NCBI GenBank assembly: GCA_035314825.1
Contig: DATFYX010000059.1
Span: forward strand, 1 to 64,000
DNA: 64,000 bases
DNA from: Candidatus Eremiobacteraceae bacterium
Lineage (GTDB): Bacteria; Vulcanimicrobiota; Vulcanimicrobiia; Eremiobacterales; Eremiobacteraceae
Reading direction: 5' to 3'
Shown: positions 54,378-61,061 of the stretch, one piece after another
How the letters are laid out: every line of letters starts with the position of its first letter
Position numbering within the stretch: the first letter of the stretch is position 1
Position numbers and translations under genes: made by a program
The notes under the pieces: generated by a model
What the model saw: the letters and a program-made list of their open reading frames with translations, nothing else
The model's database searches: none
What the model was told of the DNA's origin: nothing

Positions 54378-55280
54378 CTAGTGGGCGAACTTGGTGCCGG
54401 GGCGCAGTTTGCTGACCGTATGATGGTCCGGCGTGATCTGCGCCTCGTTGCCGGCCAAGACGTTGAAGGTCTCGCCGGGCAGGAAGATCGCGACGCTGCC
54501 CTCTCCGACGGCGACGTGCGTCGACCCGGTCTGCGCGGTGACGGTGAAGATCGTGCCGGTCGGCACGACGGTCGCCTGATCGGTCGCGACGTGGATGGCC
54601 CCGCTGTTCTTCTGAAGGTTCTCGCGCACGCCGACCGTGCCGTGATCGATGCGCACCGCGATGACGTCGGGATCGCCGGTCTGCGGATCCACGCGCACGG
54701 TGCCGACCTTGATCTGCGTGCCGTTGGCGATCGTGACGGCCAGATGCGGGCCGATCGCGATGGTCGAGGGCTGGTCGGAGCTGTTCGAAAGCGTCTCACC
54801 CGGCTGGATCATGACCGAGCCGGATGCCGGCGATGACGAACCGTTGGCGGCAGCGACGTCGAGCGAACCGTTGATCGCCGCGGAGATCGAGGTCGGCACC
54901 TGGCTGCGGTTGATCGCGCTTTGCTGGATCACGCCCCGGCTGATGAGGATGAGCGCGAAGACCGCCGCCGCGGTGCCCAGCGCCAGTCCGAAGCTGCGCC
55001 AATTGGTGACTGAATCGACCAGGCTGCGCCATGTCTCGCCGCGTTTGGTGGTGACGTGGTTGGCGGCGAAGACGTGCTCGATGATGCGATCTTCCAGGCC
55101 GCGCGGCACGGCGAGCTGCGGCACTTGGAGCAGCAGCGCCTGGAACCGCTCGGCGCGCGTCAGGGTGTTGGCACAGGCGAAGCACGTGCGGCGGTGGGCG
55201 TCGAGCAGCATCTGCTGCGTCGGCGTCAGCTGTGCGTCGAAGGACTGGTAGAGGAAGTCGAGCGCTTCAGAGCACTCCAT
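54378..55280 (-). CDS. Anti-sigma factor with zinc finger and FecR-like domain
   Basis: 300 aa. The N-terminal zinc finger has the H-x3-C-x2-C pattern (AHRRTCFACANTL). A membrane helix near residue 95 (FGLALGTAAAVFALILI) is followed by a periplasmic FecR-like beta domain (PSTIAIGPHLAVTIANGTQI; TVVPTGTIFTVTAQTGSTHVAVGEGSVAIF). It would hold the ECF sigma factor encoded 16 bases upstream until an envelope signal releases it. Confidence 0.83.
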   Translation of the reverse strand: MECSEALDFLYQSFDAQLTPTQQMLLDAHRRTCFACANTLTRAERFQALLLQVPQLAVPRGLEDRIIEHVFAANHVTTKRGETWRSLVDSVTNWRSFGLALGTAAAVFALILISRGVIQQSAINRSQVPTSISAAINGSLDVAAANGSSSPASGSVMIQPGETLSNSSDQPSTIAIGPHLAVTIANGTQIKVGTVRVDPQTGDPDVIAVRIDHGTVGVRENLQKNSGAIHVATDQATVVPTGTIFTVTAQTGSTHVAVGEGSVAIFLPGETFNVLAGNEAQITPDHHTVSKLRPGTKFAH

Positions 55281-55296
55281 CCTTACATGCGTCCTT

Positions 55297-55884
55297 TCAC
55301 GACGTCAGCAGCGGGCTCAGCCACGTCTGGAGCCTGCGCTTGGCACGGTGCAGATTGGTGCGGGCCGCCTGTTCGGTCATGCCCAGCACGTCGGAGATCT
55401 CGGAATACGCAAGCCCCTGCAGCTCGCGCAAGATGAAGACCATGCGCTCCTGGGCCGGCAGCAGCGCCAAGCCCTCTTCGAGCGCCTTGTACGTCTCGCG
55501 CCCCTCGGCGCGCGTTTCGGGTCGATCGTTGACCGAAGCGGTCAGCTCTGATTCGGGGACGTCTTCGATGTCGGTCGTCTGCAGGCTCGCACGGCCCATG
55601 GACGTGAGGCAGACGTTGACGCAGATGCGATACAGCCAGCTCGAGACTTTGCTGCGGCCCGAAAACGTGTTGGCATGCTGAAACGCGCGCAGAAATGCCT
55701 CTTGGACGAGGTCCTCCGCGGACGCCGCATTATACCGATAGGCAACGTTGTACAGCATTCTCGTGTATCGCCGCACCAGATCGGCGAACGCATCCCCGTC
55801 TCCCTTGGCGATGCGTTGCATCAGGGCAAAATCGGGCCCTGACGACACTGGTTCCAATTTCTTGGACCGTATCGGATGCAACAT
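55297..55884 (-). CDS. ECF-type sigma-70 family factor
   Basis: 195 aa. Region 2 (DGDAFADLVRRYTRMLYNVAYRYNAASAEDLVQEAFLRAFQHANTF...WLYRICVNVCL) and region 4 (ALLPAQERMVFILRELQGLAYSEISDVLGMTEQAARTNLHRAKRRLQ) are both complete. It is paired with the anti-sigma factor downstream. I do not see a typical ECF -35 GGAAC box upstream, so autoregulation is not demonstrated. Confidence 0.9.
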   Translation of the reverse strand: MLHPIRSKKLEPVSSGPDFALMQRIAKGDGDAFADLVRRYTRMLYNVAYRYNAASAEDLVQEAFLRAFQHANTFSGRSKVSSWLYRICVNVCLTSMGRASLQTTDIEDVPESELTASVNDRPETRAEGRETYKALEEGLALLPAQERMVFILRELQGLAYSEISDVLGMTEQAARTNLHRAKRRLQTWLSPLLTS

Positions 55885-56019: not shown

Positions 56020-57327
56020 GTGCGAGATTACCCAGGCAGCGTCGAGTGCGCCCGGTCACCTTTGCGCGCGCCGCGACCAGGCATCGCGGGACGGCCGAGC
56101 GAATCGCCCCGAGCCATCGTGCGGAACTTCTTATTAGAGGAGCTGGCGGACGCGCTTGATGACCGGAGCGGCCAGTTCCGTTATTTTTTCGTGAGCGCTT
56201 CAGGCCGGGTCCAGCCGTACGCCACGGACGACCCGGCTGCGCTGCGCATCGCAGCTCGCGCCGACGCCATCGCCGTCCATCCCATGTCCCACAGCGAAGC
56301 GCACGCATTGATGGTCGACTTCATCGAGACCCTGCTCGACGGCGAGCTGGCCGACCGCCTTCGCAGCGCCGCGAGCGGATCGACCAGCCCCGCCCGCTTC
56401 CTGCAGGTGCTCAGCGCCTATCCCCGCGCGCGCCGTTCGTGGTTATCCTATCGTCAGCGCCGGCTGGAGTCGCTCGCGCTCGACTGGCTGCGCGAGCATG
56501 GCGTCGACACGGCGGCGTTTGGCCTGGACGAGCCCGCTCGATCGGAAGAAGAAGCGACGGGCTTGCGTTTTGCGCCCGAGCTCGAAGAACGCTTGCGTGG
56601 ACTGCGCGAGCAGCTGCGCGCGTTCGGCGCCCAGGGCGAAGCGGCCGCGATCGCCCGGGCCGCACTGCGCCACGAATGGCGCATCGACGAGATCTACCAC
56701 TCCAACGCGCTGCGCGGCAACCGGCTCGACAGGACGCAGACCGAAGATCTGGTGATGCGCGGCGAGACCGTCGGCGGCCTGACCTTGCGCGAACACCTCG
56801 AGGCAGTCAACCTGTTCAAGGCTTTGGATCGCGCCGCCGTGCTGGCGCGCAGCGACGCGCCGCTGACCGAGCATGCGATCCGCGAGCTGCACGCCCAGCT
56901 CTTCGCCTCGATCGACGACGAGCAGGCGGGCGAGTATCGCCGCACCGACGCGCGCATCGTCGGCCGCGACTACCTGCCGCCGGAAAGCGTACTCGTGCCG
57001 GCGCTGCTGCGCGAGTTCACCGAGTGGCTGGAGGAATCGTCCGCCGATCCGGTCGCAAAGGCCGCGGCGGCGCAGGCCAAGATCCTCAACATCGCGCCGT
57101 TCCTGGACGGCAACGGCCGCGTCGGCCGCCTGCTGTCCAATCTGATCCTCGAAGCCAACGCGTATCCGCCTGCCATCGTGCACGTGCAGGACCGTGAACG
57201 CTACTACGACGGCCTGCGCCAGGCCGATAGCGGCGACATGAGCGGCCTGCTCGCGTTGCTCATCGACTGCATCGAAGCGGCTCTCGCGCGCCTGTCGGGC
57301 GCAGTACGCAGCGCCGGCAACGTCTAA
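56020..57327 (+). CDS. Fic-domain protein with degenerate active-site and inhibitory motifs
   Basis: 435 aa from GTG 56020; GTG 56119 is a possible later start. An N-terminal region (about 35-165) resembles UPF0158 proteins and ends RSWLSYRQRRLESLALDWLREHGVD. The Fic core includes SNALRGNRLDRTQTEDLVMRGETVGGLTLREHLEAVNLFKAL and IAPFLDGNGRVGRLLSNLILEANAYPP. In the active-site motif the normal His is Ala359 (A-P-F-L-D-G-N-G-R), and in the inhibitory helix the normal Glu of S-x-x-x-E-G-N is Arg232. Classic AMP transfer is therefore doubtful. Its stop is 10 bases before the nuclease gene. Confidence 0.8.
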   Translation: MRDYPGSVECARSPLRAPRPGIAGRPSESPRAIVRNFLLEELADALDDRSGQFRYFFVSASGRVQPYATDDPAALRIAARADAIAVHPMSHSEAHALMVDFIETLLDGELADRLRSAASGSTSPARFLQVLSAYPRARRSWLSYRQRRLESLALDWLREHGVDTAAFGLDEPARSEEEATGLRFAPELEERLRGLREQLRAFGAQGEAAAIARAALRHEWRIDEIYHSNALRGNRLDRTQTEDLVMRGETVGGLTLREHLEAVNLFKALDRAAVLARSDAPLTEHAIRELHAQLFASIDDEQAGEYRRTDARIVGRDYLPPESVLVPALLREFTEWLEESSADPVAKAAAAQAKILNIAPFLDGNGRVGRLLSNLILEANAYPPAIVHVQDRERYYDGLRQADSGDMSGLLALLIDCIEAALARLSGAVRSAGNV

Positions 57328-57337
57328 GCACGCACGC

Positions 57338-58927
57338 ATGGATTCCGACGACGCCGGGGCGCCTTTCGCGGGCGCGCCTGCCGGTGGGCTGCGCGAAGCC
57401 ATCGCCGCCGCGCTCGCGGCCGGCGATTGGCCGTGGCCGGCATCGGTGCGCAGCGACGATTCGTTCATCGACGGCTTATGCGAGTTGGCTTCGGCATTCG
57501 AGCGCGCGGGTGTCGGCGAGCTGGCGCTGGCAGCCGCCGTCGCGGACGAACATGCAGAGCGCAGTGCGATCGCGCGCGTGCTTCTCCACGCGCGGCGCGT
57601 CGCTCGCGGAAGCTCGCCGCACGGTCCTCCCGATGCGCGAGCACGTGCGGCGCGGCCGCTGGAGGCGCGGACCCTCGCCGAGGCCTTCGAGCTGCTGGCC
57701 GGCGAGGGGATCGAGGATATCGTGATGCACCGCCGCATCGTCGCGGCGATCGCGGCGCCGCCGCCGGGCGTGCGGCTGCATTCTCATCGAAGAACGGCGG
57801 CGCACGATGTGCGCCTCGCCTCGATCCGGTTTTCCGATGACGCGGCGCCGGCAGACAAGTTCGGCGCTTGGTCGGCCGCGCTGGGAGCAGACGTGGGCGC
57901 GCACGATGCGGGTGCGGGCGTACACGTGCGCGTCGCACAGCCCGCGTCGTCGGCGTTGGCTGCTTGGTTCGACACCCTCGACGCCGGTCCGGATGTCTGG
58001 TCGTGGCCGCCGCCGGAGGAACCGCGCCCCCTAGTCGCGCCCGCCATGACGTTTTCAGCATCGCGCCTCAACGGTTTTGTGAAATGCCCGCGGCGCTGGT
58101 TCTTCGAGTACTTGTGCGATGCGCTCGACGATGAAGGCTCGGCGGCGGCCACCTACGGCAAGGTGTTCCACGAAGCGCTCGAGGCGCTGCATCGCGCGAT
58201 CCGCCTGCCGGCAGAATTCTCCGGCAACGCGATCCTCGAGCGCCTTCATCTGGAGCTCGATCTCGCGTTCCAGCGCAACGAAGCGCAGTTCGCATCACGG
58301 CTGGAGCTTGAGGTCAGCCGCCTGCGCGCCCGCGCGGTCGCGGCGCATTATGCGCGTTGGCTGCGCGCCGAAGCGCAGGATCATCCGATGCACGTCGAGG
58401 CGGTCGAATCGCTGCAGCGTTGGACGATGGGTAGACACGAATTTGTCGGCTTCGTTGACCGCATCGACCGCCCGGCCGGCGGCGGCCCGATCACCATCTA
58501 CGATTATAAGACGGGGCGCATCGAGGAGGACCCGCGCGAATATGTCGCGGCGATGCGCCGCGGCGAAGAAGCCCAGCTGGCGCTGTACTACACCGTGCGC
58601 CGCATGCGCGGGGACCAGGTAGGCAGGCTCGCGCTGATCTCGCTGCGCGATCCGCGCGATCCCGTCTGGGTGCTCGCGCTCGACATGACCGATGACGCCG
58701 GGGTCGCCGTCGTGGAACGCAGCGAGCGCAGCGGCGTCGTGCGCGGATCGTGCACGCCCCAGGATATCGAAACGGCCGTCGAAACGCTCCTCGCCCGGGC
58801 GGACCTGCTGACCGGCGGCGGTCTCGAGCATTTCGAGGTCGGTGAGGATCCGCCGTGTTCGTACTGCGCGTACGCCCGCGCGTGCCGCGAGCGGCCGGAC
58901 GAAGGCGAGCGCGTCTTTGCCCGCTGA
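57338..58927 (+). CDS. AddB/RecB-like PD-(D/E)XK nuclease with Fe-S cluster
   Basis: 529 aa. The N-terminal ~230 residues are Ala-rich and not recognised. The C-terminal nuclease begins SASRLNGFVKCPRRWFFEYL, has YGKVFHEALEALH, the core FVGFVDRIDR...ITIYDYKTG (Asp, D-x-K), QLALYYT, and CSYCAYARACRERP for the remaining three Cys of the 4Fe-4S site. This is the nuclease half of AddB without a complete helicase. It overlaps the helicase gene downstream by 11 bases, so the two act together. Confidence 0.82.
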   Translation: MDSDDAGAPFAGAPAGGLREAIAAALAAGDWPWPASVRSDDSFIDGLCELASAFERAGVGELALAAAVADEHAERSAIARVLLHARRVARGSSPHGPPDARARAARPLEARTLAEAFELLAGEGIEDIVMHRRIVAAIAAPPPGVRLHSHRRTAAHDVRLASIRFSDDAAPADKFGAWSAALGADVGAHDAGAGVHVRVAQPASSALAAWFDTLDAGPDVWSWPPPEEPRPLVAPAMTFSASRLNGFVKCPRRWFFEYLCDALDDEGSAAATYGKVFHEALEALHRAIRLPAEFSGNAILERLHLELDLAFQRNEAQFASRLELEVSRLRARAVAAHYARWLRAEAQDHPMHVEAVESLQRWTMGRHEFVGFVDRIDRPAGGGPITIYDYKTGRIEEDPREYVAAMRRGEEAQLALYYTVRRMRGDQVGRLALISLRDPRDPVWVLALDMTDDAGVAVVERSERSGVVRGSCTPQDIETAVETLLARADLLTGGGLEHFEVGEDPPCSYCAYARACRERPDEGERVFAR

Positions 58928-61061
58928 CACGGGGATCGCGCTCGCGCCGGCAGTAGGCAAAGCCGTCGAGGCGCCGGACGGCGTCACCCTGGTGACCGGT
59001 CCGCCGGGTTCGGGCAAGACGACGGCGCTCGCAGCTCGCGCCATGCGTCAAGCGCGCGCCGCACCGGTGCTCGTCATCTGCGCCAATCCTTCCGGCGTCC
59101 GTGCTTTTCGCGCGGCGCTGGAACAACCGGATCAGGCACACCCTGTCCACGTCGGCACCGCGCCCGACCATTGCCTGCGCTGGCTGCGCTCGCATCACGC
59201 GCTGGCAGGCGTCCATCCGGACGTGCGCGCCGGCGGCGATGGCGCCGCGTACGCCATCGTGCGCGAGGCCGCGGCCGGCCTGCTCGACATGAGCTGGCCC
59301 GAATTACAGGTCGCCGATCTCGATCTCAATGTGCCGTTCCTGAGCCGCCCGGATAAGTTCCTCGAGGAATCGGCGAATCTGTTCCGCCAGCTGCGCGGCG
59401 CGCGCGTCGCGCCGGACGACTTCGAGCGCGGGTGCGCGGCCGGGTTGACGGCCTTTTACGGCGACGAGGTGGAAGCGGCGCTGGCCAAGTGCGCCGATCC
59501 GGCGCTCAACAGCCGCCTCAGCAGGCGCGGTCGCGAGGCGTCGCGCGCCAATGCGGCGGTGCTGCAACAGCAAAAGCGCGCCGAGCGCGGATTGGCCGTG
59601 CTGCTCGGGCGCCTTTACCGCGAATACCTGCGCGCCGCGCGCAGCGCGCAGGCGCTCTCCGATGAGGATATCCTCGACGAATGCATCCGCTGGCTGAGCG
59701 CCGACGCGCCGTCGGCGCGTGCGCTCGCAGCTTCGTATGCAGCTGTGCTGGTGGACGACGCGCAAGACGCGCACGCTTCCGTAAGCGATCTGCTGATCGC
59801 GTTGGCGGCCGCCGGTCTGGCAGATGTCACGCTCGCAGGCTGGCCTGACGGTGCGATCGATGGGCTCGAAGGCCGCCGCTCAGCGCTGGCAGCGCTACAG
59901 CCGACCGAGCACATCGCGCTGCCGCCGCTCGTGCCCCCACCGCAGCCTGTGTCGCAGCGCTTCAAGCATGAAGAAGAAGAGGTGCGCCACGTCGCGCGCT
60001 CGATCGCGGACCTGGTCGCGCAAGGAGCCCACGTCGCCGACATCGCGGTGCTCACCCGCAGCGCCGATGCGGCGGCGATCTATGCGCAGCGATTGGCGGA
60101 CGCCGGCTTGCCGGTGGATGCGCCGCTCGAACGGTTCGCGCGGCCGCGCGAGATCGGAGACTGGTTGGCGCTGGCGGCCGTCGTCGATGATCCCCACGAC
60201 CACGAACATCTCTTGCGCGTGCTTGCCTCGCCGTTGCTCGGTCTCGGCGACGCGAGCATCTACGCGTTGTGCGAAGACCCCGAGGCGGTGACCCAGCTCG
60301 CCCTCGACGTCGGCGTGGGCGACGGGCGGGTGCGCCCGGGCGGCGGCCGTCAACGCACCGCGCTCGCGCGCAACATGTCGGAGGGAACCGTCGACGATCG
60401 CCTGCCCGAGGATGTGCGCGAACGCGTCGTCCGTTTCCGCGCGAGGCTGGTGCAATGGCGCGAGCGCTATGCCGGCTTGTCGCCCGCCGGCACGCTCGCG
60501 CGTTTGGCCAAATCGGCCGGCTTCGAGCAGCATTGGCGTTCGGCGCCCCCCTACCAGCGCGCGCGCCTCGCGCAGGACACGCTGCGCGTCATCGAAGCAT
60601 TCGCCGGCGCGCATGCGAGCGGCGTCGACGCGCTCGGTGATCTCGTGCGCGGGTTTGACGACGGCGATGTGCCCGTTCGGCCAGCGCAGCGCAGCGCAGA
60701 CGCGATCGCCTGCGACACGATCTCGGGCGCAAAAGGGGAGCGCTGGCCGCATGTCTTCGTCACCGGCCTGGCGCACGAGCGCTTTCCTCGCATCTACGTG
60801 TCGCGCGCGATGGCGTTTTCGCGCACCTACGGCCTCGTGGTGCGCGAAAATGTCGCGCCCGGCGCCGCGCAGACGGCGAAGTTCGCCTGGTACTACGCGC
60901 GATTCGACGCCAAAGCGATGTACTTGGCGCAAGAACGCCGCGCGCTGGCATACGGTTTGTCGCGCGGCTGGCGCAGCGCGTCGGCGACCGGCTTCGGCAC
61001 GCCGCCCCGTTGGGCCAAGGACTATGACCTGTTCGCCGCGCAAGCGAGCGACGCATCGTGA
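58917..61061 (+). CDS. UvrD/AddB-like helicase partner of the nuclease
   Basis: 714 aa from TTG 58917; an earlier in-frame start at 58842 would overlap the nuclease gene by 86 bases. Walker A TLVTGPPGSGKTTALAAR near residue 25, Walker B VLVDDAQDAHASVSD (Asp-Asp rather than Asp-Glu), VAVLTRSADAAAIYAQRL (motif IV-like) and a C-terminal region with IACDTISGAKGERWPHVFVTGLAHERFP (motif V-like). With the preceding nuclease it forms a two-gene resection-type helicase-nuclease, shorter than AddAB or AdnAB. Confidence 0.78.
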   Translation: MPADTGIALAPAVGKAVEAPDGVTLVTGPPGSGKTTALAARAMRQARAAPVLVICANPSGVRAFRAALEQPDQAHPVHVGTAPDHCLRWLRSHHALAGVHPDVRAGGDGAAYAIVREAAAGLLDMSWPELQVADLDLNVPFLSRPDKFLEESANLFRQLRGARVAPDDFERGCAAGLTAFYGDEVEAALAKCADPALNSRLSRRGREASRANAAVLQQQKRAERGLAVLLGRLYREYLRAARSAQALSDEDILDECIRWLSADAPSARALAASYAAVLVDDAQDAHASVSDLLIALAAAGLADVTLAGWPDGAIDGLEGRRSALAALQPTEHIALPPLVPPPQPVSQRFKHEEEEVRHVARSIADLVAQGAHVADIAVLTRSADAAAIYAQRLADAGLPVDAPLERFARPREIGDWLALAAVVDDPHDHEHLLRVLASPLLGLGDASIYALCEDPEAVTQLALDVGVGDGRVRPGGGRQRTALARNMSEGTVDDRLPEDVRERVVRFRARLVQWRERYAGLSPAGTLARLAKSAGFEQHWRSAPPYQRARLAQDTLRVIEAFAGAHASGVDALGDLVRGFDDGDVPVRPAQRSADAIACDTISGAKGERWPHVFVTGLAHERFPRIYVSRAMAFSRTYGLVVRENVAPGAAQTAKFAWYYARFDAKAMYLAQERRALAYGLSRGWRSASATGFGTPPRWAKDYDLFAAQASDAS

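Follow-up and report, generated by a model that had tools for sequence, protein, structure and literature searches.

A conserved FICD-type Fic domain with replaced catalytic histidine and inhibitory glutamate, encoded ahead of a nuclease and UvrD-like gene pair in Candidatus Eremiobacterota

The closest described counterparts of the protein considered here are the class II AMP transferases/deAMPylases FICD/HYPE and C. elegans Fic-1. Mutation of His363 or Asp367 cuts the activity of FICD E234G to about 4-6% (PMC4342408), and the H363A and E234G-H363A forms of FICD are both inactive (PMC6826200). ADP is bound about tenfold more tightly by FICD E234G (160 nM) than by the wild type (1.5 µM), and FICD Asn407 directly coordinates the bound nucleotide (PMC4342408). 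Fic/Doc groups with altered motifs, some of them without the His, have already been published; the Bartonella BepFIC domains and the His-to-Gln Doc clade D2 are conserved groups of this kind (PMC8401265, PMC4454073). BepFIC domains belong to class I-derived Beps and clade D2 consists of Doc proteins, whereas the protein described here, pseudo-Fic, is of the FICD type, with both His and Glu replaced in an otherwise canonical loop. With FICD and Fic-1 it shares the common Fic fold, the layout with an N-terminal inhibitory helix, the DGNGRxxR motif, and the dimer-interface residue L258 of FICD (retained as L256), but it differs from them in lacking the catalytic His and the inhibitory Glu, in carrying a UPF0158-like domain in place of TPR, and in being a bacterial protein encoded in an operon with a nuclease.

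Pseudo-Fic is encoded in a 64,000-nucleotide stretch of a Candidatus Eremiobacteraceae contig, hereafter the window (Table 1). A frame of 435 residues runs from 56020 to 57327 on the forward strand, as the original prediction had it, and its end stands. The start probably does not: translation is more likely to begin at the GTG codon of V34 (56119), because this codon is shared by 10/10 orthologs in the alignment and the orthologous ORFs at three loci (L040, L045, and L046) begin there. Residue numbers in this text follow the longer frame and count from 56020 as residue 1. The stretch GGGACGGCCG, located 5' of the GTG start at 56088-56097, resembles stretches in several orthologs; it was dropped as a meaningful upstream motif because the window holds 10 matches against 16.5 expected with one mismatch allowed, and hence no enrichment.

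Table 1. Positions in the window of the pseudo-Fic gene, its domains and key residues, and the neighbouring genes
Feature	Position	Strand	Basis or remark
Pseudo-Fic coding sequence	56119..57327	+	~402 aa, GTG start; earlier ORF from 56020
N-terminal UPF0158-like domain, residues 34-170	56119..56529	+	Pfam PF03682
Linker and FICD-type (class II architecture) Fic domain, residues 171-430	56530..57309	+	Pfam PF02661, phmmer, VIA-align
R232 codon, replacing inhibitory Glu (FICD E234)	56713..56715	+	Ortholog alignment
A359 codon, replacing catalytic His (FICD H363)	57094..57096	+	Ortholog alignment
Retained phosphate/Mg loop PFLDGNGRVGR	57097..57129	+	Invariance in orthologs
Operon gene 2: PD-(D/E)XK nuclease, AddB-type Fe-S cysteines	57338..58927	+	Pfam PDDEXK_1 2.4e-32
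Operon gene 3: UvrD-like protein	58842..61061	+	Pfam UvrD; exact start uncertain
Divergent neighbour: ECF sigma factor	55297..55884	-	Pfam
Divergent neighbour: anti-sigma-like/FecR-domain protein	54378..55280	-	Pfam FecR; synteny

The N-terminal part of the protein matches UPF0158 (PF03682) at 4.5e-6, with 27.2 bits against a cut-off of 21.1, which bears out the proposed fusion, and it contains a conserved basic helix, PRARRSWxxxRQRRLE. Modelled alone by AF2, this domain reached a pLDDT of 86. It found no PDB match by Foldseek at E <= 0.001, a best VIA Z of 3.8, and no sequence match to PDB better than E 0.57, which does not amount to a new fold. Stand-alone UPF0158-like paralogs, 31-37% identical, occur in the examined loci of the same GTDB family, and one of them (L047:7545-8453) adjoins a homocitrate/citramalate-synthase-like ORF. 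A single scan with patterns derived from the N-domain found no viral relatives. The C-terminal part matches Fic (PF02661) with an E value of 1.4e-17 and 64.7 bits against a curated cut-off of 24, and phmmer matched the protein to FICD and Fic-1. The same two proteins rank at the top for the AF2 model of pseudo-Fic in Foldseek and VIA-align (Z 25-26), which supports a predicted FICD-like fold as in class II Fic proteins; the model, built from six rows, has a pLDDT of 75.7, and its flap region is modelled poorly.

The active-site loop of pseudo-Fic, IAPFLDGNGRVGR, reads I358-A359-P-F-L-D363-G-N365-G-R367-V-G-R370 in translation, and the inhibitory-helix motif SNALRGN reads S228-N-A-L-R232-G-N. 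In the alignment to human FICD, A359 and R232 take the places of the catalytic H363 and the inhibitory E234, and D363, N365, R367, and R370 correspond to the retained D367, N369, R371, and R374. Both replacements and the intact G-N-G-R had been read from the DNA in the original prediction, and translation and alignment agree with it. The catalytic position holds Ala (GCG) in 4/10 orthologs and Ser (TCG/TCA) in 6/10, and R232 is Arg in 10/10 with silent change among the codons CGC, CGT, and CGG. Compared with the Fic AMP transferase motif HPFx(D/E)GNGRxxR, the orthologs have A/S for the His in all ten cases and keep the remaining motif residues: the loop P, F, D, G, N, G, R, and second R are invariant in 10/10, with synonymous codon variation. 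The class II inhibitory motif (S/T)xxxE(G/N) has changed in a similar manner, its position and the S, G, and N being kept and Glu replaced by Arg throughout. The question posed at the outset, whether the two changes co-occur in orthologs, is thus answered by A/S and Arg standing together in all ten, and the possibility that the orthologs would all carry His was not borne out, none having it at the catalytic position. Since these orthologs come from separate genomes, the substitutions are neither local nor due to chance.

Ten of the 14 genomes in the GTDB family concerned, a family of Ca. Eremiobacterota, have full-length orthologs, 66-80% identical in the alignment, and represent eight genera; a profile search of 149 genomes in the phylum found none outside the family. 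The ten sequences form a single clade (support 100/100) whose stem is long, at 1.23 changes per column, and the homologs L012 and L013 are nearest to it with weaker support (84/87). Pairwise dN/dS values in the Fic domain are 0.07-0.12. In one genome pair, blastp identity was higher for pseudo-Fic (67%) than for the nuclease (53%) and the UvrD-like protein (47%). A sequencing error, local mutation, or decaying pseudogene is refuted by the agreement of ten genomes from eight genera and by a dN/dS of about 0.1, and retains practically no probability.

The tree and the residue columns rest on a comparison set of 15 His-containing homologs and FICD (16 rows). Because 12 of the 15 homologs were hand-picked from loci known to have HPF and the alignment accepted HPF.DGNGR rows only, the His in these rows is a result of selection and is uninformative on how often it is kept; the residues of the other three, from plasmid loci L171-L173, were not known when they were chosen, and His is present in 3/3. 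Glu played no part in choosing the rows. By motif scan the inhibitory Glu was found in 13/15 homologs, with Val in L173 and no such motif in L076; in the alignment the column holds Glu in 15/16 rows, FICD included, and Val in one (14 and one of the 15 homologs alone), and L076 is probably a Glu row whose following residues are unlike GN. Glu is usual, not universal, among the His-containing relatives compared, and Arg occurs at this column in none of the 16 rows. The Val-bearing L173, from a Methylobacter plasmid (NZ_CP091425.1), is encoded between type I restriction S and R genes. A looser scan of the phylum also brought up His-less Fic-like proteins with Gln in LQPF..(A/G)NGR (L017 at G014:C1:2410776, L079, and L081) and one with Arg for His in IRPFVEGNGR (L023 at G037:C3:1498424).

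The possibility of an alternative His supplied by another loop had been raised in the original prediction. Comparison of the clade with the 16 rows revealed clade-specific invariant residues that include R232, R235, R308, R312, D317, Q352, R400, and D403, and no newly gained invariant His among them. The candidates H227, H259, and H291 are invariant in the Fic domain and were rejected, none being clade-specific; each of the 16 comparison rows has His at the H291 column, and L171 and L173, which keep the catalytic His, share YHSNA. The column of FICD H356 is His in all 16 rows and Gln352 in pseudo-Fic. By analogy with the FICD mutants, loss of canonical AMPylation and deAMPylation in pseudo-Fic is near certain.

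Loss of that reaction leaves room for an active transferase of other chemistry, in which the altered pocket (A/S359, R232, and D403) would accept a co-substrate such as a nucleotide-sugar and use no His base. The precedent is the Fido-fold protein AvrB, which transfers rhamnose, has a divergent catalytic motif, and works without a divalent cation (PMC10866546), and the pocket of pseudo-Fic is strictly conserved, with R308, R312, D317, Q352, R400, and D403 newly invariant. However, the Mg-ligand Asp and both phosphate Arg residues are still canonical, and the predicted model matches AvrB much more weakly (VIA Z 9.3) than FICD (Z 25-26). We therefore regard this main rival as rather unlikely. 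The net charge of the Fic domains in the clade (-9 to -2) lies within the range of the comparison rows (-12 to +2), so that a general DNA-binding surface on this domain is unsupported.

Pseudo-Fic, the nuclease, and the UvrD-like protein are encoded in this order on one strand at 10/10 loci, and in the window 10 bp separate the end of pseudo-Fic from the nuclease ATG. The nuclease conserves H, D, DYKTG, QLxxYY, and the four Fe-S cysteines, and its active site is intact by motif comparison. In the UvrD-like protein, motifs II and III are degenerate throughout, with DExQ mostly DDAE/DDAQ and motif III degraded, and Walker A is kept in most genomes; the protein has Met for the Walker A Lys at L144 and L145, in genomes without Fic. 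The two partners resemble AddB/TIGR03623 in pairing an Fe-S PD-(D/E)XK nuclease with a UvrD-like protein of degenerate helicase motifs, but they are two separate genes and reach 56 bits against the TIGR03623 cut-off of 300; the genome has a longer nuclease/helicase-like pair at another place. The divergent ECF sigma factor accompanies 7/10 Fic loci, and the contigs of two of the other three end close by.

In three sister genomes of genus g3 the locus lacks Fic, and its sigma factor, nuclease, and UvrD-like genes are ordered as in the Fic loci; g3 is nested with weak support (82/86) in the helicase tree and has an open position in the nuclease tree. The nuclease/UvrD-like pair is present in 40/41 relatives searched, and G002 (72% complete) has weak matches elsewhere only. 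The Fic-less g3 loci and the breadth of the pair argue that the pair predates its link with Fic, and that Fic is at most accessory to it. A defence system was rejected as an explanation, given the occurrence of the pair in 40/41 relatives and PADLOC matches that are generic (Fic and UvrD models) and include none for the nuclease. The locus contains no small adjacent antitoxin of the FicTA (class I) kind, the neighbours being the ECF sigma factor and the nuclease.

The constant gene order in 10/10 loci would also suit a pure protein-protein scaffold, in which the Fic fold binds no ligand and does no more than dock the nuclease pair or some other protein, much as the Fic domain of BepC acts by binding GEF-H1, no catalytic activity having been found for it (PMC8401265). 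A scaffold of this kind, whose phosphate loop and Mg-ligand Asp need not stay invariant over such divergence, seems to us unlikely. Pseudo-Fic could instead read or trap AMPylated proteins, binding a target and leaving its AMP on, in the manner of FICD H363A, which holds BiP-AMP tightly and dissociates from it slowly (PMC6826200). Yet pseudo-Fic is the only PF02661 match in 8/10 carrier genomes, that of the window included, so that the search for Fic (PF02661) proteins finds in these genomes no second Fic AMPylase whose mark it could read or whose activity it could neutralise. A role as antitoxin or AMP-reader for another Fic is disfavoured on the same ground, and the reader or trap is a very improbable explanation.

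The pseudo-Fic of this soil bacterium is most likely a former enzyme that now acts as a nucleotide-sensing or docking partner, because both residues are lost, the loop is unchanged across species, and the same nuclease gene pair always follows downstream. About half of our confidence goes to a Fic-fold pseudoenzyme kept as a nucleotide- or polyphosphate-binding regulatory or scaffold partner of the nuclease/UvrD-like pair. A FICD-like (class II) Fic domain joined to a UPF0158-like domain had its general-base His replaced by Ala/Ser and its inhibitory Glu by Arg on one long stem branch, and strong purifying selection has held the protein thereafter. By analogy with FICD, no AMP transfer is expected of pseudo-Fic, whose open pocket may bind a nucleotide, diphosphate or polyphosphate by way of Asp363, Arg367, Arg370, and the GNG anion hole, which is intact; the invariant DGNGRxxR fits the re-purposed nucleotide-binding protein of the original prediction. 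Arg232 would add positive charge and would no longer block the γ-phosphate site as Glu does, although, lying beside R370, it could harm the geometry of the ligand site as well as aid binding. The ligand may not be ATP, since D403 replaces the nucleotide-coordinating Asn407 of FICD, and a non-nucleotide ligand is possible because FICD binds farnesyl diphosphate without catalysis (PMC12974487).

We infer from gene order that the ligand state would be relayed by protein contacts to the Fe-S PD-(D/E)XK nuclease and its UvrD-like partner; operon linkage alone is no proof that pseudo-Fic interacts with the pair. A more specific proposal, made tentatively, is that the FICD-type Fic domain serves a DNA nuclease complex solely as its nucleotide sensor, a subunit without catalysis of its own; Fic and the UvrD-like protein would then both be degenerate members of the complex, and only the nuclease would have an intact active site.

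Degenerate Fic domains are known; what appears new, as far as the open-access literature shows, is the double substitution in a FICD-type protein and its operon, searches of that literature having found neither a FICD-type clade that carries the two changes together nor the operon. Predictions of Fic activity lean mostly on two residues, and both are replaced in a strongly selected lineage, which makes pseudo-Fic a natural counterpart of the laboratory FICD E234/H363 double mutants, and annotation by Fic profile only would wrongly call it an AMP transferase. The protein also gives UPF0158, a family without known function, a context in which it can be tested. If pseudo-Fic does sense nucleotides on behalf of the nuclease, regulation of DNA processing would be added to the roles of Fic domains.
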